A model generated the notes under the pieces. That model saw nothing but the letters and a program-made list of their open reading frames with translations, was not told the origin of the DNA and did not search any database. From Bacteroidia bacterium (GTDB lineage Bacteria; Bacteroidota; Bacteroidia; J057): a stretch of DNA of 64,000 bases. A program made the position numbers and the translations under genes. Positions 8,906 through 59,813 of this stretch are shown one piece after another. The stretch's first letter is position 1. Every line of letters starts with the position of its first letter. The stretch spans positions 1-64,000 of the forward strand of contig JAUIGE010000028.1 in the NCBI GenBank assembly GCA_030430205.1, read 5' to 3'.

Positions 8906-11900
8906 CTACCGCAATACGACCAGCTTATTTGCCTTGTACACCGTCTGGCCGGTTTCTTTGTCGGTCAGGCTTACCTGATAGACGTAAATGCCATTGTTGA
9001 CGATATTGCCGTTGGTGGTGAAGCCATCCCAGCTAAGGCCGCGGTAGTAGTTGCCGTCGGCATAGAAGCTGCCTTCTAGCACCTTGACGGTCTGACCGGT
9101 TTCTGCCACGATACGCACAGTCACATCATAGTCTTTGCCTGTCTGGCTAAAGCCTATGAGGAAGCTCGTTTCGTCTTTCATCGGGTTGGGGTAATTGAGG
9201 ATCTCATGCAATACCAGGCGCGCATCGGAACCCACGATGAAGTGGGTGCTGGCTTCCGCCCAATTGTTGGCGATGTCCCAGACCCGTACTTTGAGCTTGT
9301 GCTCTCCATCCTCCAGGTCTTTCAGTTGATAATAAACCGAGCCGCGCTGGTAGTCGTCACGCTCCGCGGTATAGTACTCATTCAGGATAATGACATTGCC
9401 TTCATCTTCATCCAAAATCCCCACGATCTCATGACCGATGCCGCTACCGACAAGGTTGATACCGTTTTCATCAAATAAAACTGCATAGAGATAAGGGCTG
9501 GGGCCTGTCTGACCGCCGTCTATCCATGCATCATTATTCATATACAGCCTGATCTTCGGACCTTCATGGTCTGGCGTAGCCGTATCATCGGTACCACCGA
9601 TATAGAGGTTGTTGTAACAGCCATGGCCGTCGAGTTCCTTGTTGTTGAAATACAGGCTGAATTTCCCCTGACCATCTTCATAGGAAACATCGATCGGCAC
9701 GACAAATTCGAAGCTGAATTCTCCATCTGTCACGCTGGCGTTGCCATTAAAAATGCGGTTGGTCTGCCAGTAGAAGGGAAAAGGCGCGAGACGCGTGATG
9801 AATTTTGAGGGTTTGTCAAAAACAGTGATTGCCATATCGCCCGCATAATCCGTCAACTGATTGCCTTCCGTATCTGTGATGATCCCCGAAACCTTGATTT
9901 TGGACAAAGAAGCCAGGCTATCAGTCAGCGAAAGGTCTACGGGCAAATCATTGATTTTTGTGATCCTCGCTTCCATCTCGGGATAGGCCAGGATCAGGCC
10001 CGGGTCGCCCAGGAGGGTGAAGTTGCGGGAGTTGATATCGGTCGTCTGGCCGAGGGGGAAAGTCCTGTTTTTGGTACGCATCATGATCTCTCCGATGGTA
10101 GGCATGCGCTGATTTACGCTATCGTAAGCAAAAGCTTCATTGTATAGGTTGCGGTTGAGGGTGGCGTTGGGGGAAGAATAGACCAGCCTCAGGGTGGTGA
10201 AAAGCGCGATAGCGCCTCCGTCCGGCTTCATGACAAAGAGCTCCGCTCCCGAGCGACGATCCTGATCGTCGTAACGCCCAAACTCACATGTCGCCGTGAT
10301 GACGGCGGGCTGGCGGTTGCCATTGTCCATACTCTGAATATCAGAGAGATTGAGGATCCGCGAGTTGGACCAGGCGTATTCACCGCCATGGCCGGTATAG
10401 TTGACGATCAGGCTTCCCCGCCTGAACTGCTCCATCAGGGCCTCACGGCCCTGTGGGAAGAAGGTACCTCCTGCGGTTTGATCCACGGGATAGTTATCCA
10501 TATAGATTTTCTCCAGGTTGATACAGGGCTCATATTTGTTGATTATGGCAGTATAAGCATCAGCCTGGCTGACATGGGTGTAGCCTTCGCCTTCCTTATG
10601 GTCTGCGACCAGCACGACCCTGTTGCGCCAGCTCCCAAAGCTCTCTTTGTTGGTGACATAATTGATGATTTTGTCCACGATGCCCCTGGCTTCTTCCACC
10701 GTCTCCACCGGCAAACGGCCCAGGGCCACATCCATGTGGTTACGGCTATAGGTATCGCCACCGCCGGTGCCCTCTCCCCAAAAACCATCTGTCTCGTCCA
10801 GCATGGCATAAAAGTCATCACTGGTATAGGAAGTGGTGGGATTGTTGGACGTACGGCTTTGATAGGTCGGCAGAAAGTTGCGTACCGTAGGTGCCTGGGT
10901 TATGTTTTTGAAATCATAAGAGCCATCTCCAAAAAAGAGGGCAAACTGCGGATGACTTCCGCCGGAGCGATCATAGATCATTTTGAGGTAGTCGCGGTAG
11001 GCGCAGACATCCTGTCTTCCGGAGGAAAATTCATTGTACAATTCGGCAGGGTATACCACCCTTACTGTGCGGCCATAGTGGTCGCGGTGAAACTCCGCGA
11101 GGCGCTCCGCCTCCTCTCCAAAGTCAGGATAGGAAAAGATGATGTAATCATAGAGGGTCGGTTCGTGCAGGTTTTGGTTTGCGATTTTTTGCGCACGGAC
11201 CGGGCTGAGGTAGCCACCTTTAAAAACGACAAAATGCTTAGGCTCAGCCGCTTCTACTTTGAAGCCCATCTGAGTTCCGGAGATGGTATAGTTGTGATTT
11301 ATCACCTGGGTAGGATCTGATACTTCCCAGATTTTGTAGTTGCTATTGGCGCCGCCAATCTTGACATCGGCTACGGCCCCTGCGGCTATGCCCTCCGTGA
11401 GCTGCATGTCGAGCACATTGAGGTTGCGGGTATGCAGGGCCTGGTCGTACTGGAGCTCGATCCAATCGAGCCATGCCTCCGAGCGGCTGGAGCCCGCTTT
11501 GTTGTAGGTCAGCGTGATGCGCAGTGAGTCATTGGCAACGAGGTTGCCCGGGACGCTATAAGTGGCCGATCTCGGCCTGTAGTACATACTCTCATTGTTG
11601 GTGACATTCACAGAGTTGATCGCGAGGGTGCCCAGGTTGCTGTTGTTGGCAGTGATAGTGAAACTGCTCGTCACATCGGAGCGGGCAGCGAGGTTTATTT
11701 TTATGATAATATTGCCATTGGGATCAGCATCAGGAGTATAGAAGGCAAAGCTTCTTGTGGTGATCAAATCAAATTTTTGGCCCAGCCAAAAACGACCGGA
11801 CTTGATGAGATTTTCCTTATCCAGCTCATAAAAAGCGATGCCTGTGCCTTTGGCAGGCGTATAGGTCGCCGTAGCCGTGCTCGTTCGGTTCTCTATCCTT

Positions 11901-12373
11901 TTACCCGATTCTTCATTGTTTTGACTGATATGAAGAAAATAAAAGTTGGTGTCCGAATACAGATTCAGCTCGTGTTTAAAATTGTTTTTGTCTGCCTCAT
12001 ACTCCCAGGCATGCGGGCCTTCGCCATAAAAAAGGACGTAGTCCCCGGCATCAAATGTGCCGTCGCTTTCGCCTTCTACCCAGATGGCGTTTTCGGCGAG
12101 GTCATCATGCCGAAAATCGGCATTGGCTTGCGGCATCATGCCGCCTCCGTTGCCATATATCCGAATTTTTTTCGGATTGACAGAAGCAGTATTGATGCCC
12201 AGGCTTTGCAAATAAGCCTGATCCAGGCGATAAATGCCGTTTTTCAGCACCGCCAATTTATACCAATCCCCATCCGTCAGGACAGAAGCTTCGGTATAAG
12301 TACGCTGTGCCTGGAGCGACATAAAGGAAAGAGAAAATACACTTGTGAGTAGAATGAGAGTAAAATATCGCAT
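8906..12373 (-). CDS. porU: Type IX secretion system sortase PorU (peptidase C25-like)
   Basis: 1155 aa from ATG at 12373, which begins the signal peptide MRYFTLILLTSVFSLSFMSL; upstream in-frame Met is not signal-like. PorU is the outer-membrane-bound transpeptidase that removes C-terminal sorting domains of T9SS cargo and anchors them to LPS. Visible features: the PorU N-terminal pattern DGDWYKLAVLKNGIYRLD, KIRIYGNGGGMMP and DAGDYVLFYGEGP; the gingipain-like catalytic region with His in VNYTGHGGEYAWSN (near 661) and Cys in ITATCEFGRYDDQ (near 694); and a C-terminal sorting-domain-like end (LNYPNPMKDETSF to YKANKLVVLR) that PorU itself retains. PorV, often adjacent, is not in the window; PorZ is at 55.3 kb. 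Confidence 0.95.
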   Translation of the reverse strand: MRYFTLILLTSVFSLSFMSLQAQRTYTEASVLTDGDWYKLAVLKNGIYRLDQAYLQSLGINTASVNPKKIRIYGNGGGMMPQANADFRHDDLAENAIWVEGESDGTFDAGDYVLFYGEGPHAWEYEADKNNFKHELNLYSDTNFYFLHISQNNEESGKRIENRTSTATATYTPAKGTGIAFYELDKENLIKSGRFWLGQKFDLITTRSFAFYTPDADPNGNIIIKINLAARSDVTSSFTITANNSNLGTLAINSVNVTNNESMYYRPRSATYSVPGNLVANDSLRITLTYNKAGSSRSEAWLDWIELQYDQALHTRNLNVLDMQLTEGIAAGAVADVKIGGANSNYKIWEVSDPTQVINHNYTISGTQMGFKVEAAEPKHFVVFKGGYLSPVRAQKIANQNLHEPTLYDYIIFSYPDFGEEAERLAEFHRDHYGRTVRVVYPAELYNEFSSGRQDVCAYRDYLKMIYDRSGGSHPQFALFFGDGSYDFKNITQAPTVRNFLPTYQSRTSNNPTTSYTSDDFYAMLDETDGFWGEGTGGGDTYSRNHMDVALGRLPVETVEEARGIVDKIINYVTNKESFGSWRNRVVLVADHKEGEGYTHVSQADAYTAIINKYEPCINLEKIYMDNYPVDQTAGGTFFPQGREALMEQFRRGSLIVNYTGHGGEYAWSNSRILNLSDIQSMDNGNRQPAVITATCEFGRYDDQDRRSGAELFVMKPDGGAIALFTTLRLVYSSPNATLNRNLYNEAFAYDSVNQRMPTIGEIMMRTKNRTFPLGQTTDINSRNFTLLGDPGLILAYPEMEARITKINDLPVDLSLTDSLASLSKIKVSGIITDTEGNQLTDYAGDMAITVFDKPSKFITRLAPFPFYWQTNRIFNGNASVTDGEFSFEFVVPIDVSYEDGQGKFSLYFNNKELDGHGCYNNLYIGGTDDTATPDHEGPKIRLYMNNDAWIDGGQTGPSPYLYAVLFDENGINLVGSGIGHEIVGILDEDEGNVIILNEYYTAERDDYQRGSVYYQLKDLEDGEHKLKVRVWDIANNWAEASTHFIVGSDARLVLHEILNYPNPMKDETSFLIGFSQTGKDYDVTVRIVAETGQTVKVLEGSFYADGNYYRGLSWDGFTTNGNIVNNGIYVYQVSLTDKETGQTVYKANKLVVLR

Positions 12374-12406
12374 GAGTCTATGCTTATTTGATTTGTAACG
12401 AATAAA

Positions 12407-12414
12407 CAAATTTA
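12407..12414 (-). promoter_or_regulatory. Candidate -7 box (TAAATTTG) for porU
   Basis: On the minus strand TAAATTTG matches the Bacteroidota TAnnTTTG element, 33 nt upstream of the porU ATG. No clear TTTG -33 box at the right distance was seen, so support is partial. Confidence 0.4.
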
Positions 12415-12594
12415 AACAAATCAAGGTTGCCAGCCGAGGTAAAAAAGCCTGCACCCGCAGGTAAAAATTTTCGCATGGCGAATTTTTGACACCAAATTAG
12501 CTTTTCTCCACCTCGATAACTGACGTTAAAAAGACAAATCCGGGCAAATTGTTTCAACCTACTTAATTGTTTTTACATGATGCGTTTATAAAAA

Positions 12595-12693
12595 ATGCTG
12601 ACAGCCTGCTTGCTGTTTATGACTCCATTTGCCCTTTTTGCTCAGTTTTCTTCGGGGATTAATAGCCTGGGATTAACAGGCAATTTCCCTTAA
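12595..12693 (+). CDS. Possible 32-aa secreted small peptide
   Basis: ATG at 12595 opens MLTACLLFMTPFALFAQ, a textbook short signal peptide ending in a FAQ cleavage site, followed by FSSGINSLGLTGNFP and TAA. A strong intrinsic terminator starts at the stop codon, which supports a transcribed unit. In the same frame just upstream are MMRL and a stop, so this could also be the relic of a longer leader. The 471-bp gap between porU and the di-heme oxidoreductase is otherwise explained by this ORF, its terminator and the next promoter. Confidence 0.45.
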   Translation: MLTACLLFMTPFALFAQFSSGINSLGLTGNFP

Positions 12694-12735
12694 AAAATGC
12701 CGGAGACTCAGAAGGCCTCCGGCATTTTTATTTTT
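12693..12735 (+). terminator. Strong intrinsic terminator
   Basis: Perfect 13-bp arms AAAAATGCCGGAG (12693-12705) and CTCCGGCATTTTT (12717-12729), followed by ATTTTT. It directly follows the stop of the 32-codon ORF and insulates the downstream operon. Confidence 0.9.
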
Positions 12736-12761
12736 AAGCCATGCCTTATTTGCAGCTGCTT

Positions 12762-12792
12762 TTTGATAGAAAAATGAAAATTATTAGCTTTG
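12762..12792 (+). promoter_or_regulatory. Bacteroidota promoter of the oxidoreductase-Rieske-porin operon
   Basis: TTTG at 12762-12765, 19-bp spacer, then TAGCTTTG at 12785-12792, an exact fit to the TTTG-N19-TAnnTTTG consensus. The ATG is at 12845, giving a leader of about 45 nt. Confidence 0.7.
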
Positions 12793-12844
12793 TCTAAATT
12801 TATATTATTGATTACTTAATCATATATAAAGAGCAAAGCTAAAA

Positions 12845-14050
12845 ATGAAAAAAACCTATCGTCTTTTTCCTATAATCCTGCTGGCCTGTGTCCTGGTTTT
12901 TTCTTTTGCATGCGAAAAAATCATCCCTCCGGCTCCCGCCGAAAACAGCTTACTGGACGGCCCTATGGAGGGCCTGACACATGCTGAGCAGGCTCAGTTT
13001 CTCGCAGGCGACATCGCCTTCAATGAGGAAGTATTCACTACCCAGACGGGCCTGGGGCCGCTTTTTGTAGCGACCTCCTGTGGCAGTTGCCACATAGGTG
13101 ATGGGAAAGGCCATCCTTTCACGACGCTTACCCGCTTTGGGCAGACGCTGCCCAATACGGCACCCGATCGCTCGATCGGGGGGCCGCAATTGCAGCACAG
13201 AGCCCTTCCGGGCTATGAGCCCGAGCAAGTGCCCGCAGGCGTGCCTTCCATGCAATTCAATCCGCCGGCTGTCACCGGTCTGGGGCTGCTTGCAGCCCTG
13301 ACAGATGCGCAGATCCTGGCGCAGGCCGATCAGGCAAATGCCGATAATCCCGGGATTTCGGGCATTCCCAATTATATTTCTCCGCCTCCCTATTTTATTC
13401 CTCAAAACAACCACCAGGCAGTAGATGGAAAATATATCGGCCGTTTTGGCAAAAAGGGCGCAGCCATAGATTTGCTCCAGCAGACGGTCGGAGCCTACAA
13501 CCAGGACATGGGCATCACCTCGACTTTTGAGCCGGTGGATGTGGCCACAGGGCTGATCACCGATCCTGAGGTGAGCGATCAGACAGTGAAAGACATCGTC
13601 TTTTACCTCCGCACGCTCAAAGCGCCTTTGCCCCGCAAGACCGATGATGCAGAAGTCCTGCAGGGCAAAGCCCTCTTTCAAACCCTCCGCTGCAGCGCCT
13701 GCCATACGCCTTCCTGGACCACGCTGCAATCCGATATTGCTGCTTTGTCCAACAAGACTTTTTTTCCCTATACCGACCTGCTGCTGCACGATATGGGCGC
13801 AGAGCTGGATGATGGAGCCACCGAAGGCTCCGCCGAGACCTACGAATGGAAAACGCCTGCGCTTTGGGGACTGGGGCTTTCTCCCAACTCACAGGGTGGA
13901 GAATATTACCTGATGCACGATGGCAGGGCACGAAGCATCGAAGAGGCGATCTTGCTGCATGGAGGCGAAGCTGCGCAAAGCAAAGAAGCCTATCAGGCAC
14001 TCAGCCAGGCGGATAAAGATGCCTTGATCCAATTTTTAGAATCCCTTTAA
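12845..14050 (+). CDS. Di-heme oxidoreductase family lipoprotein (DUF1111-type)
   Basis: 401 aa. Lipoprotein signal with lipobox FSFAC near residue 23. Two c-type heme sites: ATSCGSCHIGDG (near 79) and LRCSACHTPSW (near 284). Other family marks are GLGPLFVATSC, LPGYEPEQVP, FGKKGAAIDLLQQ, YTDLLLHDMG and KTPALWGLGLS, which place it in the di-heme oxidoreductase (putative peroxidase) family. It is predicted to be anchored in the periplasm and to transfer electrons; the true substrate is unknown. It is the first gene of a tight operon: its stop is followed at once by the Rieske gene (0 bp gap), which overlaps a porin gene. Confidence 0.92.
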   Translation: MKKTYRLFPIILLACVLVFSFACEKIIPPAPAENSLLDGPMEGLTHAEQAQFLAGDIAFNEEVFTTQTGLGPLFVATSCGSCHIGDGKGHPFTTLTRFGQTLPNTAPDRSIGGPQLQHRALPGYEPEQVPAGVPSMQFNPPAVTGLGLLAALTDAQILAQADQANADNPGISGIPNYISPPPYFIPQNNHQAVDGKYIGRFGKKGAAIDLLQQTVGAYNQDMGITSTFEPVDVATGLITDPEVSDQTVKDIVFYLRTLKAPLPRKTDDAEVLQGKALFQTLRCSACHTPSWTTLQSDIAALSNKTFFPYTDLLLHDMGAELDDGATEGSAETYEWKTPALWGLGLSPNSQGGEYYLMHDGRARSIEEAILLHGGEAAQSKEAYQALSQADKDALIQFLESL

Positions 14051-14500
14051 ATGGTAAAGATGGACAGGAAAAAATTTATCAGCACTTGCGGCTGGGGATG
14101 TGTGGGCCTGATGAGCAGCAGCATGCTGCTGCAAAGTTGTCTCAGTGTCAGGTACCTGGAAGCTACGCTTTCAGGCTCCTTTCTGGAGCTTCCGCTCAGC
14201 GCTTTTGAAGTAGTGAAAAAGGACAAAAAGAGCCTGCGCAAATATGTTGTCGTCCAACATGAAAAGCTGCAATATCCGATCTGTGTCTACAGATTGGCAG
14301 AAGATAACTACCAGGCCCTGTGGATGAAATGCAGCCACCAGGGTACAGAATTGCGCGCCTATGGCGACCGCCTGCAATGCCCTGCCCATGGCAGCGAATT
14401 TACACAGGATGGCAAGGTCCAGAATGGACCCGCAGACCAGCCTTTGCGAACCTTTCCAACACAAATTGAAAACCACCTCCTCAAAATACATTTGGCATGA
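14051..14500 (+). CDS. Membrane-anchored Rieske [2Fe-2S] protein
   Basis: 149 aa. Cluster ligands are clear: CSHQG (Cys94, His96) and CPAHGS (Cys111, His114), both in the Rieske fold order. The N-terminus MDRKKFISTCGWGC followed by a hydrophobic run and LLQSC looks like a Tat-type lipoprotein signal, consistent with export of a folded iron-sulfur protein. The length suits a stand-alone Rieske electron carrier, not a bc1 subunit. It begins immediately after the di-heme oxidoreductase stop and overlaps the porin start by 4 bp. It likely passes electrons to or from the di-heme protein (inference from context). Confidence 0.92.
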   Translation: MVKMDRKKFISTCGWGCVGLMSSSMLLQSCLSVRYLEATLSGSFLELPLSAFEVVKKDKKSLRKYVVVQHEKLQYPICVYRLAEDNYQALWMKCSHQGTELRAYGDRLQCPAHGSEFTQDGKVQNGPADQPLRTFPTQIENHLLKIHLA

Positions 14501-15726
14501 AAAAGTGGCTTATAGGAAGCGTATGCTTCATTTTTGGCGTGAGTGCCTCGGCACAGATTGACAGTTCGCTCCTGAGCCGGACGCCGGTCGATACGAGCCT
14601 CCGGCAATCCATGAATATGGATGCCGTTTACAACCGCCCTTTTCTGCAAAGCGGAAAAATACCCGTAACGGTGGGCGGCTATATCGAAGCCGATTATCAA
14701 TACATAGGCGAAGATGGCGTGACCGATGGCCACAGCTTTCGCATCCCCCGGATGACGATCTTTATCGCTTCTTCTCTTCAGCGAAAGATCAAATTTCTGA
14801 CAGAAATAGAGCTGGAAGAGGGTGGAAAGGAAATCGCCATTGAATTTGCTGCGCTGGACCTCAGCCTGCATCCCTTGCTCAATGTGCGCGGAGGCGTCAT
14901 CATGAATCCGATCGGCGCTTTTAACCAAAATCACGACGGCCCCAAATGGGAGTATGTAGACCGCCCCATCGCGATGACGCAGATGCTGCCTGCGACCTGG
15001 AGCAATGTAGGTTTCGGCCTCTATGGCAAGCAATATGTCAATGACTGGGCATTGGGCTACGAACTCTACCTGACCAATGGTTTTGACAATTCGATCATCA
15101 GCAATAGCGAAAACAGAACCTTTCTGCCTGCTTCCAAAGCCAATAAAGAGCGCTTTGAAGAAAGCGCAAACGGTCAGCCTTTGCTGACGACCAAGGTCGC
15201 CATTCGCCACCAAAAAGTAGGCGAAATCGGCCTTTCCTATATGGGAGGCGTTTACAATACATTTGAAAAGGATGGCCTGGTATTGGATGAAAAACGGCGT
15301 TTGGGCGTTTTTGCGGTGGATGCCAATACCAGCCTGCCGGGCATCTCTACCTACATCGTAGGGGAATGGGCCTGGGTCCGGGTAGATGTACCCGACACCT
15401 ACATCCAGCAATTTGGCGACAGGCAGCAGGGCGGCTTTGTGGACATCGTGCAGCCGGTTTTCCGGCGGTCCTTATTGGGCTTTGACAAAGCCGTTTTGAA
15501 TATCTCCTGCCGGCTGGAGTATGTAGACTGGAATGTAGGCACCTTCCGCGAGACCGGCGGCAACATCTCCGATGACCTCTGGGCCATCGTGCCGGGCATC
15601 AGTTTCCGGCCTACGGCCCAGAGTGTCTTTCGCCTGAATTATCGCTATATGCAGCAGCAGGATATATTGGGCAATCCGCCTGCGGTTATCGGGGGTGTGC
15701 AGATGGGGGTTTCGTCTTATTTTTAA
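14497..15726 (+). CDS. Outer-membrane porin, phosphate-selective-porin-like
   Basis: 409 aa with signal peptide ending SASA. The beta-barrel pattern includes VTVGGYIEADYQYIGEDG, FRIPRMTIFIASSLQRKIKF and FLTEIELEEGGKEIAIEFAA. GGVIMNPIGAFNQNHDGPKW followed by ATWSNVGFGLYG matches the Bacteroidota porin family related to OprO/OprP. The last residue is Phe (SSYF), as usual for barrel proteins. It overlaps the Rieske gene (ATGA), so the three proteins are co-translated. It could admit the substrate of the periplasmic redox pair. Confidence 0.88.
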   Translation: MKKWLIGSVCFIFGVSASAQIDSSLLSRTPVDTSLRQSMNMDAVYNRPFLQSGKIPVTVGGYIEADYQYIGEDGVTDGHSFRIPRMTIFIASSLQRKIKFLTEIELEEGGKEIAIEFAALDLSLHPLLNVRGGVIMNPIGAFNQNHDGPKWEYVDRPIAMTQMLPATWSNVGFGLYGKQYVNDWALGYELYLTNGFDNSIISNSENRTFLPASKANKERFEESANGQPLLTTKVAIRHQKVGEIGLSYMGGVYNTFEKDGLVLDEKRRLGVFAVDANTSLPGISTYIVGEWAWVRVDVPDTYIQQFGDRQQGGFVDIVQPVFRRSLLGFDKAVLNISCRLEYVDWNVGTFRETGGNISDDLWAIVPGISFRPTAQSVFRLNYRYMQQQDILGNPPAVIGGVQMGVSSYF

Positions 15727-15727
15727 G

Positions 15728-17128
15728 CTACACCTCCGCCATGATCCCCAGCTCCCGCTTCCCTTCCCACTTCCCCCGTGTAAAATCGGGAAAAGCGACT
15801 GACAAGCTGCCCAGCTCCACCGAAAGCTTCGACAGCGGTATCACCACCGACCAGTCGGCGGCGTCATAGACATCCATGTCCAGCGGCAGGCCGCGGTTCA
15901 GGCAATCTATCAGGCGATAGATCATCACGAAGTCCATACCGCCGTGGCCGCCGTTTTCTGCTATTTGCTTTTTGAGGCGATCCCAGATCGGGTGTTTGTA
16001 CTTCTCACGCATGGCCTTGTAATCGTCTTCTTTGAGCCAGTTGTGGCTGTCTTTGCCTTTGATGGAGAGGCGGGAGGGGTAGCCCTCGTGGTAGGCATTC
16101 GTGCCCGCGAGCGCATTGATGCGGCTGTAGGGGCGCGGGGTGACGACATCGTGTTGCACGAGGATGCTGCGGCCCATGGCCGTTTTGATGAGCGTATTGT
16201 TCATGTCGCCATGAACGAAGTCGGTGCGGTTGTAAAATTCGTTGTCGGCTTCGACCGTGAGGCTGTGCGCTGTCAGGCCTGCTTCCAGGCTGCTCATGGA
16301 GACGAGTCGCTCAAAGCGATCTCCTCTCGAAATGCCCATATACTGGGCCACGGGGCCCAGGCCGTGGGTGGGGTAGAGGTTGCCATCGTTTTCGATGTGG
16401 TGCCTGATCCGCCATTGATCGTAATAGCCTTTATTTTTGTCAAACATCAACCACCTCAGGTCGTGGATGTAGGCAGCTTCTGCATAGGTGAGCGTCCCAA
16501 AAACGCCTTTTTGTGCCATATTAAGCACCCAGAGTTCTTCGTCACCGTAGCAGACATTTTCCATCATCATGCAGTTTCGCTGCATTTCTTCTGCTGTATT
16601 GACCAGCTTCCAGCAGTCTTCGAGGGTCATGGCTGCAGGCACTTCGACTGCTACGTGCATGCCTTGCTGCATGGCGTAGACCGCCATGGGGACATGGTCA
16701 GCCCAGGGTGTGGAAATAACCACGAGGTCTATATCGTCTCTCCGTAGCATTTCCTTCCAGGCAAAGTCGGAGCTTGAGTAGGAGGCCGGGAACTGGTCTT
16801 TTTTACTGAGCATAGCCAGGGTCTCATCGACTTTCTCCTTACGGATGTCGCAGATGGCCGTCACCCGGGCTTTGCCGTGGAGACCGGCTATTTGCTCCAC
16901 ATGGTTGGGACCGCGCATGCCGAGGCCGATAAAAGCGACTTTTACCTCCTTCATGGGGGCAAACTTCAGGCCCATAACGCTCTTTCCCCTGGCCAATGGC
17001 TGCTCTGTAATGCTGGCGATTCGCCTTTCCACCTCATCTCTGGCGTGGCTATCGGAGAAGGGAAGGCCTAAAAATGCCGCGCTCAGGGCGGAGAGTTTGA
17101 TGAATTTTCTTCTGCTTTTGTTATGCAT
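15728..17128 (-). CDS. Gfo/Idh/MocA oxidoreductase, GH109-like alpha-N-acetylgalactosaminidase
   Basis: 466 aa from ATG at 17128, which starts a Tat signal (NKSRRKFIKLSALSAAFLGL); the frame is open upstream but the extra residues look non-coding. The Rossmann NAD site is VAFIGLGMRGPNH (near 66-76). Family marks of GH109 are STPWADHVPMAVYAM, AVEVPAAMTLEDCW, MMMENVCYGDEELWV, EAAYIHDLR and YPTHGLGPVAQYMGI. GH109 enzymes hydrolyse alpha-GalNAc by an NAD-dependent oxidation-elimination mechanism. Specificity is inferred from motif resemblance; other Tat-exported Gfo/Idh/MocA enzymes share the fold. It converges with the porin gene, with only 1 bp between the stops. Confidence 0.88.
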   Translation of the reverse strand: MHNKSRRKFIKLSALSAAFLGLPFSDSHARDEVERRIASITEQPLARGKSVMGLKFAPMKEVKVAFIGLGMRGPNHVEQIAGLHGKARVTAICDIRKEKVDETLAMLSKKDQFPASYSSSDFAWKEMLRRDDIDLVVISTPWADHVPMAVYAMQQGMHVAVEVPAAMTLEDCWKLVNTAEEMQRNCMMMENVCYGDEELWVLNMAQKGVFGTLTYAEAAYIHDLRWLMFDKNKGYYDQWRIRHHIENDGNLYPTHGLGPVAQYMGISRGDRFERLVSMSSLEAGLTAHSLTVEADNEFYNRTDFVHGDMNNTLIKTAMGRSILVQHDVVTPRPYSRINALAGTNAYHEGYPSRLSIKGKDSHNWLKEDDYKAMREKYKHPIWDRLKKQIAENGGHGGMDFVMIYRLIDCLNRGLPLDMDVYDAADWSVVIPLSKLSVELGSLSVAFPDFTRGKWEGKRELGIMAEV

Positions 17129-17144
17129 GAGATTGGGGTTTTTG

Positions 17145-17591
17145 CTAATACCAGATTTGCTCAAATTTTTCGACAAATACCGTTTCTGAAATGGCTTCTT
17201 TCCCGATTTTGGCCAATTGCTCATTGATGGCGGGGTACAAAATGATTTTTTCCAACTCATCAAAAGGTATCCAAACTGCTTCCAGCGCGGAAGTTTGTTC
17301 CGGATTGATTTTCACTTCTCCCGACAGGATTTTTCCCTGAAAAACGGTATGCAGCACAGAATCCAGTTTGCCGGCCCTTTGGCCGACGCCCTGGGCAACA
17401 ACCGCAAGCTGCTGGGCATCTACATGGATGTTGAGTTCTTCGAGTAGTTCGCGTTGTACGCATGCGGGCAGGGACTCTCCGGCATCGGGATTGCCGCCGG
17501 GCAGGTTGTAGACGTCTTTACCGCCGTAGCGGTATTTGAGCAAGAGGATGCGTGCATCCTGGGAGATGATGGCTGCAGCTCTTACCCTCAT
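17145..17591 (-). CDS. Nudix hydrolase
   Basis: 148 aa with a complete Nudix box at residues 32-54 (G32-G33, E39, R47-E48, E51-E52: G x5 E x7 REUxEExGU). It hydrolyses a nucleoside diphosphate linked to another group; the substrate is unknown. It starts inside the stop of the upstream membrane-protein gene (4-bp overlap), so the two are coupled. The stop lies 16 bp from the GH109 start on the same strand. Confidence 0.92.
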   Translation of the reverse strand: MRVRAAAIISQDARILLLKYRYGGKDVYNLPGGNPDAGESLPACVQRELLEELNIHVDAQQLAVVAQGVGQRAGKLDSVLHTVFQGKILSGEVKINPEQTSALEAVWIPFDELEKIILYPAINEQLAKIGKEAISETVFVEKFEQIWY

Positions 17592-59308: not shown

Positions 59309-59813
59309 CTATTTTTTGATCCGCCATGCTTTTTTCCTTATAGAATCGGAATCAATATCTCGGTTTTCAGTACAGGACAATTTTTCAGGAAAGTCCCCCA
59401 AAGTCCCGAAGGGACGCCATATTCAGCATGGGGCGAAGCCCCATGAAGGTAAATGCCTCCAATAGAAGTCCTGAAAGGACGGCATATCTTAGGAAGCCAT
59501 GGCTAATATATCGCCCTTTCAGGGCTTTAAGACCTGGTGTGAATCGAATGATCGGGCTTTGCCCGATCGTAGTATATAGCGTCCCTTCAGGACTTTGAGG
59601 ATGTTTATTATTCATGACTTTCATTTTTTGTCCTGTACTAATATCTCGGTTAATAAAAAGGCCAGCAGATTGAAAAAAATCATAAGGTTCGTCAGATTCT
59701 TTTTCAACTATATATTTGATCTTCACTTCAATAAAAGTGAATTGTTGCAGCAATTCTAATAAGAAGCTTTGCTTGCTTTGATCTTTTAGTTTAATGATAA
59801 TCTGATCCATCAT
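59309..59813 (-). pseudogene. Antitoxin-like gene split by a miniature mobile element
   Basis: From ATG at 59813 the frame reads MMDQIIIKLKDQSKQSFLLE, LLQQFTFIEVKI, EPYDFFQSAGLFINRDI, then enters the element and continues as a chimeric 142-codon frame to 59385. Left of the element the sequence resumes in the matching frame: after the duplicated 12 bp it reads DSDSIRKKAWRIKK and stops at 59309-59311. Removing 59354-59639 rebuilds a 72-aa protein ending DIDSDSIRKKAWR. That size and C-terminus resemble Bacteroidota antitoxins that pair with PIN toxins (recollection, not a search). No toxin gene lies downstream, so it was probably already an orphan. Confidence 0.8.
59366..59639. mobile_element. 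274-bp MITE-like element with TIRs, TSD and mirror-symmetric hairpins
   Basis: Flanked by direct repeats AATATCTCGGTT (59354-59365 and 59640-59651). Termini: AGTACAGGACAA (59369-59380) inverted as TTGTCCTGTACT at 59628-59639. Hairpins with GAA loops: GTCCC/GGGAC at 59403, CATGGGGC/GCCCCATG at 59427-59445, GTCCT/AGGAC at 59468. Then a central palindrome AGCCATGGCT (59495-59504). Then TTC or TTT loops: GCCCT/AGGGC at 59513, GATCGGGC/GCCCGATC at 59550-59568, GTCC/GGAC at 59581. The right half mirrors the left. No transposase inside, so it is non-autonomous. Confidence 0.88.

Follow-up and report, generated by a model that had tools for sequence, protein, structure and literature searches.

A Conserved Di-Heme, Rieske, and Porin Operon of Bacteroidota Suggests Redox-Aided Metal Acquisition

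Results

An Operon-Like Trio Conserved in Many Bacteroidota

Within the window, by which we mean the whole stretch of 64,000 nucleotides that was analyzed, three co-directional genes follow a short control region, with these features:

12762..12792, + strand: promoter TTTG-N19-TAGCTTTG of the Bacteroidota type, by string match
12784..12797, no strand assigned: putative MntR/DtxR-type operator TTAGCTTTGTCTAA (TTAG-N6-CTAA), overlapping the -7 box
12845-14050, + strand: di-heme ORF (from the ORF list) of the DHOR family (PF06537), short (~400 aa) subtype
13079..13093, + strand: first heme site, CGSCH (aa 79-83)
13691..13705, + strand: second heme site, CSACH (aa 283-287)
14051-14500, + strand: Rieske [2Fe-2S] lipoprotein ORF, probable true start 14060
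14330..14389, + strand: Rieske cluster ligands CxH...CxxH (C94, H96, C110, H113)
14497-15726, + strand: porin ORF, predicted 16-stranded outer-membrane barrel

According to the ORF positions, the di-heme and Rieske genes meet at a 0-bp junction and the Rieske and porin genes overlap by 4 bp, as the first-pass annotation of this DNA had it, save that the start methionine preferred by most relatives of the Rieske protein is codon 4 (14060; M in 43/51 rows), which would probably leave a 9-bp gap to the di-heme gene. The same annotation had proposed a single operon and had regarded the pairing of a DUF1111 protein with a lipo-Rieske as odd. This pairing turns out to be the rule: in a sample of 395 genomes of the phylum, where the best 4 candidates per genome were scored for the di-heme protein and for the porin and the best 10 for the Rieske protein, a Rieske gene adjoins all 30 short di-heme loci, and a porin lies within 1 kb of 29 of these 30, the sole exception (G171) being located at a contig end. 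A second, named set gathers the best 80 of at least 584 similar loci, which are relatives rather than independent events; 3 of the 80 have no called DHOR and 19 are long-type or fragmentary, and 57 of the 58 short loci that remain hold the complete trio. Environmental strains that bear it include Pedobacter sp. Leaf176 (L059), Chitinophaga japonensis (L101), and Flexithrix dorotheae (L046). The trio therefore survives well outside its own genome, with a conservation that is far above chance and that rules out a chance assembly of three genes. Judging from this arrangement, it is an operon-like unit, conserved as such and occurring in many Bacteroidota.

Two Redox Lipoproteins and a Predicted Porin

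The product of the first gene matches PF06537 (DHOR), a family that we take to be the DUF1111 of older usage, with 225.6 bits for a Pfam cut-off of 22. Its lipobox cysteine (Cys23) is kept in 47/47 rows, and both CxxCH sites retain C, C, and H in 57/57 short and 18/18 long DHORs. Foldseek matched its structure model (pLDDT 87.1) to hydrazine synthase chain C, bacterial cytochrome c peroxidases, and MauG, the likeness to 3o5c_A being distant (E 2.2e-6, TM 0.44/0.55, rmsd 8.1), and a global hhalign comparison with this superfamily, run against 25 relatives' sequences, gave a probability of 99.7 and an E-value of 2.5e-24. On the basis of this profile and fold likeness over both heme domains, the protein is a distant member of the bacterial cytochrome c peroxidase/MauG superfamily. 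Like these enzymes and hydrazine synthase chain C, it has a pair of CxxCH hemes and is related in fold; unlike them, it is a lipoprotein, its distal region is different, and its peroxidase activity is putative. Peroxidases carry a distal Gln/Glu pair at the peroxidatic heme; in the profile alignment, which is uncertain at this place, these residues do not fall on a conserved Gln/Glu of the di-heme protein, whose distal region is an acidic ADPxDxDGDGISG-like loop. A DUF1111 protein is listed among the chromate response in the accessible part of PMC2996968.

The second gene encodes a protein with a Tat-like signal (RKKF), a lipobox cysteine (Cys30), and a Rieske domain (PF00355, 49.3 bits for a Pfam cut-off of 20.3), whose best NCBIfam score is 31.9 for a cut-off of 250. 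C30 and the four cluster ligands are present in 51/51 rows. In Rieske proteins of bc1 and b6f complexes, a disulphide-forming pair of cysteines flanks the cluster; these cysteines are absent from the protein of the window, which has T99 and A112 in their place (Cys in 16/51 rows at each column). A role as bc1 subunit was rejected on account of this absence and of the separate operon.

The third product found no Pfam match at E 0.01 and no NCBIfam match at E 1, and a phmmer search against solved structures returned nothing useful. Its model is a 16-stranded barrel (pLDDT 86.8) matched by Foldseek to OmpM1, PorB, OprP, and OmpF-type porins, so that the protein is predicted to be a 16-stranded outer-membrane porin. 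E103, E105, E107, E116, R85, and H146 are found in 48/48 rows, E112 and D147 in 47/48; the conserved glutamates lie on two neighboring strands of the model, and His146 and Asp147 in a loop. We agree with the earlier view to the extent that such a porin implies the passage of something through the outer membrane. At one locus (L266), the porin adjoins an MntR-like gene in a genome in which a short DHOR was undetected.

A Palindrome Shared with Metal-Importer Genes

The promoter had been called a textbook one. The string does stand at 12762-12792, but the match alone is insignificant, since the window holds 4 copies of TTTG-N17..22-TAnnTTTG for 1.66 expected, and at least as many arise in 10 of 100 shuffles. 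Scanning 12400-16200 for sigma-70 promoters gave no hit. TAGCTTTG recurs, inside TTAGCTTTG(T/C)CTAA, ahead of the trio of L051, L075, and L079. More generally, the palindrome TTAG-N6-CTAA is present upstream of the trio in 34/56 named loci (related loci rather than 56 independent events; L069 and L072, whose upstream sequence is missing, were omitted from the 58), when 15 other spacings yield 0-3 each and the remainder of these loci holds 18 occurrences per 809,642 bases. It was found again in 13/19 loci of a second set that partly overlaps the first, L212/L044, L207/L047, and L219/L082 appearing to be the same records. Among the 22/56 promoters devoid of the exact palindrome, 14 have an MntR-like gene nearby and 8 do not.

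In the genome of the window, the palindrome also occurs 80 nt before a ZnuA-ATPase fusion (a Mn/Zn-type ABC importer), followed by a permease-DtxR fusion in which Pfam detects only the metal-binding domain of DtxR. Across 20 trio genomes, the palindrome sites are not above a reversed-pattern control (55 vs. 70), and only their location is therefore informative. Seven of the 55 sites precede the trio. Of 45 further ones (52/55 sites were placed, 3 sites of G164 being left out), 12 precede MntR-like, NRAMP, metal-binding ABC, or ZIP genes, 4 precede TonB receptors, 18 fall inside called genes, and 11 lie before or between genes that have no obvious connection to metals. Representative importer and regulator genes behind the palindrome were confirmed by family search, one NRAMP scoring over the MntH cut-off, whereas those of L169 (regulator), L172, L173, L192, L179 and L181 (NRAMP), L204, and L206 were named by reading the sequence.

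Around the short-type loci, the largest recurring clusters of neighbors are a DtxR/MntR-like gene, which in 23/58 named loci stands no more than four genes upstream of the trio, and genes read as metal efflux, each in 11-12 loci; the smaller clusters (4-8 loci) form a mixture in which SusC/SusD-like genes are found. An NRAMP gene adjoins the trio in 5/58. A denitrification or oxidase context, guessed from neighbor lengths, was discarded in view of the DtxR-family regulator as commonest neighbor and of these NRAMP genes. By reading, a Fur-family gene (Fur, Zur, or PerR) is near 6 loci, and FeoB-like pieces precede the trio in L084 and, in L082, stand between it and MntR.

The stand-alone regulator of the window's genome (L142:1297-1968) matches the Thermus-type MntR model with 171.5 bits and the DtxR model with 84.9, both below cut-offs; its scores against MntR models and their cut-offs are 171.5/350 (NF047407), 67.9/138, and 67.1/153, and as it stays under every curated MntR cut-off we call it MntR-like. 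Three regulators compared in this way reach 155-172 bits with the Thermus-type MntR model and 81-92 with the DtxR model, all below cut-offs, and 51-72 with the Bacillus- and E. coli-type MntR models, that is, under DtxR. When their matches are ranked, the Mn regulators SloR and ScaR come above the IdeR and DtxR chains, themselves above Bacillus MntR. In 17/25 regulators, Asn replaces Asp at a position that is presumably a metal ligand. TTAG-N6-CTAA was not found in the 3.2-kb region of the stand-alone MntR-like gene of the window's genome, nor TTAG-N6-CTAAA near either of its NRAMP genes (none on C27, the nearest on C14 ~4 kb off). The shared palindrome and the genome's MntR-like regulator point to an MntR-type regulon that would include the trio, with putative metal-dependent binding and derepression.

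Imelysin-Associated Relatives

Long DHORs share most conserved residues with the short type and sit with imelysin in the order porin-(Rieske)-imelysin-DHOR; in five sampled genomes (L254-L257 and L259), the imelysin operon also has a Rieske protein and a porin related to those of the trio. TTAG-N6-CTAA was not found in regions L254-L267, 10/14 of which hold imelysin. In the window, imelysin (PF09375) is not part of the operon, whose flanking long ORFs are on the other strand, the downstream one not being imelysin; the sole PF09375 match of the genome is on another contig. According to the available portion of PMC3143127, the imelysin family and its association with DUF1111 are linked to iron, and EfeB, placed in DUF1111, is assumed to convert ferric into ferrous iron. 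The trio has the same DHOR family as these imelysin (IrpA/EfeO-like)-DUF1111 systems, but in its short form, without imelysin, in the order DHOR-Rieske-porin, and with the palindrome in its promoter. An iron counterpart of the trio is suggested by the rearranged version with imelysin.

Discussion

From a regulatory perspective, the trio very probably belongs to an MntR/DtxR-type regulon. The palindrome in its promoter being common to metal-importer genes, the likely cargo of the porin is a metal ion, most likely Mn2+, and on balance we favor a reading in which the trio is a metal-repressed outer-membrane module for the acquisition of metal, most likely manganese, made of redox lipoproteins and a porin. 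That it serves metal acquisition is likely; that the metal is manganese rather than iron is somewhat probable, an estimate lowered in view of the palindrome missing from the MntR-like and NRAMP genes of this same genome and of the scores of the Bacillus- and E. coli-type MntR models, which stay under that of DtxR; and that the chemistry is reductive, hence the direction of electron flow, is put forward tentatively. In such a module, a metal-loaded MntR-type repressor would bind TTAG-N6-CTAA and shut the promoter, and low cytoplasmic metal would switch the trio on. When manganese is scarce, the porin, with its conserved glutamates and its His146/Asp147 loop, would let Mn2+ in. At the outer membrane, the di-heme and Rieske lipoproteins would act as a short relay for electrons and thereby alter the metal's redox state; most likely, Mn(III)/Mn(IV) species would be reduced to Mn2+ fit for transport, and ABC, NRAMP, or ZIP importers could then carry the Mn2+ onward.

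The module might instead handle Fe3+/Fe2+ and be a relative of the imelysin/DHOR systems that lacks imelysin, with a DtxR-family repressor responding to Fe2+; we consider this a serious, if rather unlikely, alternative. The ranking of IdeR and DtxR chains over Bacillus MntR and the FeoB-like pieces read in L082 and L084 would fit iron, but the Mn regulators SloR and ScaR outrank IdeR and DtxR, the three regulators lean toward the Thermus-type MntR model at 155-172 bits against 81-92 for DtxR (all below cut-offs), and the regulon comprises NRAMP (one representative over the MntH cut-off), ZIP, and ZnuA-type ABC genes. Likewise, long DHORs with most of the same conserved residues stand in porin-(Rieske)-imelysin-DHOR operons, tied to iron in what is accessible of PMC3143127, yet the palindrome is absent from the regions L254-L267 where such operons abound (10/14 with imelysin). 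A DUF1111 protein of Dinoroseobacter, grouped with iron metabolism and RirA-dependent (PMC8007024), would also fit iron. A peroxide-induced DUF1111 protein described in the same paper would fit a peroxidase defense, in which a di-heme peroxidase, made when manganese and hence Mn-dependent antioxidant enzymes are low, is fed by the Rieske protein, and the porin merely imports Mn2+. The superfamily of the di-heme protein and the stimulation of Mn uptake by oxidative stress reported in sections of PMC9334652 are consistent with this scenario, which we nonetheless deem unlikely; in the profile alignment, uncertain at this place, an acidic loop lies where a conserved distal Gln/Glu would be expected.

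Two further readings appear improbable. Some heme peroxidases can oxidize metals, and by analogy with these the di-heme protein might oxidize Mn2+ or Fe2+ outside the cytoplasm and keep the metal near the cell; however, a metal-binding partner such as imelysin is absent from the listed short-type operons, and the role assumed for EfeB in the accessible text of PMC3143127, from ferric to ferrous, runs in the opposite direction. As for the model of the first-pass annotation, in which electrons move between the periplasm and some small substrate or acceptor admitted from outside by the porin, independently of any metal supply, it accounts for two redox proteins and a porin in one operon, but not for a palindrome common to metal importers nor for neighborhoods led by DtxR/MntR-like (23 loci) and, by reading, metal efflux genes (11-12 each); no sign of an organic substrate or of a respiratory acceptor was found.

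With regard to known manganese systems, MnoP of Bradyrhizobium is described in the available part of PMC9334652 as an outer-membrane Mn channel required for Mn2+ import in Mn scarcity, as proposed here for the porin of the trio; compared by description only, it differs in that a redox partner goes unnamed there. The TBDR-pTFP system of Stenotrophomonas maltophilia, as presented in parts of PMC13217887, resembles the trio in associating an MntR-controlled outer-membrane transporter with a redox-fold periplasmic protein, but these are a TonB receptor and a thioredoxin-fold protein instead of a porin, a di-heme protein, and a Rieske protein, and the words Rieske, di-heme, porin, and cytochrome are absent from its main text. 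Among the matches listed from the open-access literature, neither the trio nor an MntR regulon in Bacteroidota was found; a word search of the accessible text of PMC9331221 and PMC10434189 gave nothing on the trio, the latter mentioning a single gene of the DtxR family, next to feoB1 of Porphyromonas gingivalis.

In this regard, the outer-membrane parts of bacterial Mn import are still called emerging in the accessible part of a recent review (PMC9334652), and the bacterial use of oxidized manganese is even less clear. The conserved trio and its defined palindrome offer a testable system: three genes behind a single promoter, together with a candidate repressor. It is a speculative and still doubtful extension that, in many Bacteroidota, an MntR-controlled Rieske/di-heme relay and a cation porin reduce Mn(III)/Mn(IV) at the surface and pass Mn2+ to cytoplasmic importers, the imelysin copy doing likewise for iron; if true, redox-assisted uptake of metals through the outer membrane would be a general principle. 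Metal supply is also suggested as a physiological setting for the DHOR/DUF1111 di-heme family, whose annotation is vague and which is here tied to an unusual Rieske lipoprotein. Overall, a control-region switch common to metal-importer genes suggests redox-aided metal acquisition, that is, that Bacteroidota with the trio rely on redox reactions at their outer membrane for obtaining a metal, probably manganese.

A conserved three-gene operon

The three ORFs reported by the first-pass annotation lie where it had placed them, joined by a 0-bp junction and a 4-bp overlap:

12845-14050, +, di-heme lipoprotein, DHOR family PF06537 (225.6 bits)
14051-14500, +, Rieske protein (49.3 bits)
14497-15726, +, porin (no family match)

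The trio stands alone, since the flanking long ORFs (8906-12454 and 15728-17263) are both on the opposite strand; the alignment of relatives suggests a Rieske start at 14060. The promoter string proposed for the operon is indeed there (12762-12792). Strings of this kind are nonetheless not rare: the window has 4, against 1.66 expected, and 10 of 100 shuffles have at least 4. A 13-nt inverted repeat (12780-12792/12834-12846, 92% complementary) has its left arm within a TTAG-N6-CTAA palindrome and the -7 box, and its right arm reaches into the DHOR start codon. Directly ahead of the promoter, at 12595-12735, a 32-codon ORF that includes a signal-peptide-like stretch could be either a small gene or a remnant. 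After it come a GC-rich hairpin and a T-run, which were spotted by eye and do not figure in the scan of 12400-16200. Elsewhere in the window, 59402-59445 (-) matches the Acido-Lenti-1 RNA (39.1 bits, for a gathering score of 37).

The trio proved to be conserved well beyond its own genome. Searching 395 genomes of the phylum with alignments of all three proteins (>400 bits for the short DHOR of about 400 aa, >290 bits for the porin), we found 30 short-type DHOR loci in 29 genomes; a Rieske gene adjoins all 30, and a porin lies within 1 kb of 29, the exception being G171, whose porin is at the end of another contig. Three of the 32 porins above 290 bits have no short DHOR within 1 kb, namely those of G171, of G347, which carries a broken DHOR fragment on another contig, and of G286. 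Among the best 80 of at least 584 similar loci (hereafter, the named set), 58 include a short DHOR gene; the trio is complete in 57 and incomplete in a Poribacteria bin (L099). Wherever all three genes of a named locus were called in order, this order is DHOR-Rieske-porin, except in L096 (DHOR-porin-Rieske). By their titles, most of these best 80 loci are from Bacteroidota; the others include Ignavibacteria, Gemmatimonadetes, and a single locus that bears the label Phycisphaeraceae. Other arrangements were also observed: a Rieske-porin pair in G445 (L258), with no DHOR match among the candidates scored, and a trio-type porin adjoining an MntR-like gene in G286 (L266), where the candidates scored include only a long DHOR. 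Heavy-metal efflux genes (by reading, CzcA/CzcB-like and copper-ATPase-like) each occur near the DHOR in 11-12 named loci, from 8 genes before to 11 after it (L046, L050, L051, L058, L068, L075, and L101 among them).

Features of the porin and Rieske protein

The porin is modelled with 16 strands, akin to OmpM1, PorB, OprP, and OmpF. Its residues E103, E105, E107, and E116 are invariant across the 48 sequences aligned, and E112 is kept in 47 of them; because they occupy mostly alternating positions on two neighbouring strands of the model, their side chains probably face the lumen. H146 (48/48) and D147 (47/48) lie in the long segment that links strands five and six, and R85 and R339 are found in all 48 sequences, so that the porin wall is not purely acidic. 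In the Rieske protein, all four cluster ligands and the lipobox Cys are kept in 51 of 51 sequences, and the signal looks Tat-like, as read from R6, K/R7, and F9. The bc1-type disulphide cysteines are absent from the window's protein in this 51-row alignment; they occur in 16 rows at each of two columns, and two further Cys are frequent in the hydrophobic stretch of the signal peptides (28 and 39 rows).

A palindrome and a candidate metal-responsive regulon

A DtxR-family gene lies 1-4 genes upstream of the trio, most often divergently, in 23 of the 58 named loci. Two such regulators of relatives and the stand-alone one of the window's own genome reach 155, 158, and 172 bits with the Thermus-type MntR model, and 81, 92, and 85 bits with that of DtxR, falling short of the curated cut-off in every case; the Bacillus- and E. 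coli-type MntR models give lower scores still (51-72 bits). Among their solved relatives, SloR and ScaR rank above IdeR and DtxR, themselves above Bacillus MntR.

In 34 of 56 named loci, the 150 nt ahead of the DHOR contain the palindrome TTAG-N6-CTAA, when 15 other spacings each give 0-3; the palindrome's frequency elsewhere in these loci (18 in 809,642 bases) predicts 0.2 in 56. A second, partly overlapping set has it in 13 of 19. Among the 22 named loci devoid of it, 14 have an MntR-like gene nearby, which in L089, L092, and L094 belongs to an MntR-NRAMP-DHOR-Rieske-porin run. A perfect TAnnTTTG box begins at the palindrome's second base in 4 of 38 cases (the window, L051, L075, and L079) and 11-47 nt past the palindrome start in 23, with none in the searched range in 11; these positions would suit repression.

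In the window's own genome, TTAG-N6-CTAAA occurs at 17 distinct places (20 rows). One is the trio; at another, a symmetric copy lies 80 nt before a Mn/Zn-type ABC importer operon on contig C24 (L144:2858-5995), which encodes two fusions, one of a ZnuA-type binding protein with an ATPase, the other of a permease with the metal-binding domain of DtxR. Counting against a regulon, the palindrome is absent from the 3.2-kb region of the genome's stand-alone MntR-like gene, and TTAG-N6-CTAAA from the vicinity of its two NRAMP genes. Counted over 20 genomes that bear the trio, TTTAGNYWWRNCTAAA, a longer form of the pattern, gives 55 sites against 70 for the reversed control, hence no excess. Despite this count, the places of the sites are telling: 7 precede the trio, and of 45 further sites, 12 precede MntR-like, NRAMP, metal-binding ABC, or ZIP genes, 4 precede TonB receptors, 18 fall within genes, and 11 are at other places. 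Family searches confirmed representative members. One site is common to the TonB receptor and NRAMP gene of L179. The receptors of L174, L179, L181, and L203 are about 36-58% identical, that of L189 being more distant; these four, of about 740-770 aa and downstream of the palindrome, form a candidate metal receptor family.

On this basis, the trio operon is most likely part of a regulon that is repressed by metal and otherwise comprises importers of Mn2+ or of ions chemically close to it; the metal-loaded regulator would repress the trio promoter through the palindrome. In this setting, the best reading of a porin with conserved acidic residues and two redox lipoproteins is a unit for acquisition at the outer membrane.

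Which metal, and which chemistry?

We consider manganese, rather than iron, a reasonably probable substrate; that the trio handles iron instead seems unlikely. Imelysin-DUF1111 operons are linked to iron uptake in PMC3143127, and the long DHORs (about 460 aa) do occur together with imelysin (confirmed by Pfam in L116), in the order porin-Rieske-imelysin-DHOR in L254, L255, L256, L257, and L259; in L260, L262, L264, and L265, no Rieske gene was detected between those for the porin and imelysin. When 49 positions of 57 short DHORs were compared with those of 18 long ones, most proved to agree; F98, G112, and G352 clearly differ, and D56, Q117, and P130 do so in part. TTAG-N6-CTAA is absent from the 14 regions L254-L267, 10 of which include imelysin. 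L266 thus lacks it too, but there the porin beside the MntR-like gene is at a contig end.

As for the chemistry, the di-heme protein has two CxxCH sites and a lipobox Cys23 kept in 47 of 47 aligned relatives. A peroxidase role is possible, though unlikely: its predicted structure (pLDDT 87.1) resembles hydrazine synthase chain C, di-heme cytochrome c peroxidases, and MauG, albeit with modest TM-scores and large rmsd, and a global profile comparison of DHOR with 25 cytochrome c peroxidase-like sequences of relatives gives a probability of 99.7. However, the positions that seem to correspond to the distal Gln/Glu of peroxidases fall in an acidic ADPxDxDGDGISG-like loop, in a region where the profile alignment is uncertain, so that peroxidase chemistry is only putative. 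Oxidative trapping of the metal appears very improbable. In the presence of oxygen, manganese takes the form of oxides. We tentatively favour a reduction of oxidised Mn, which the trio's redox proteins would perform, on account of this form and of two accounts, one tying a cyanobacterium's better growth on Mn oxides to pili that may donate electrons (PMC5634550), the other reporting reduction by EfeB as an assumption (PMC3143127).

The component families of the trio are already known; the open-access literature matches listed include no description of the trio or its regulation. One recent parallel, described in PMC13217887, is an MntR-controlled module that likewise joins an outer-membrane component to a redox-fold unit. 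Overall, we lean somewhat towards viewing the trio as an outer-membrane metal-acquisition module, most likely for manganese.
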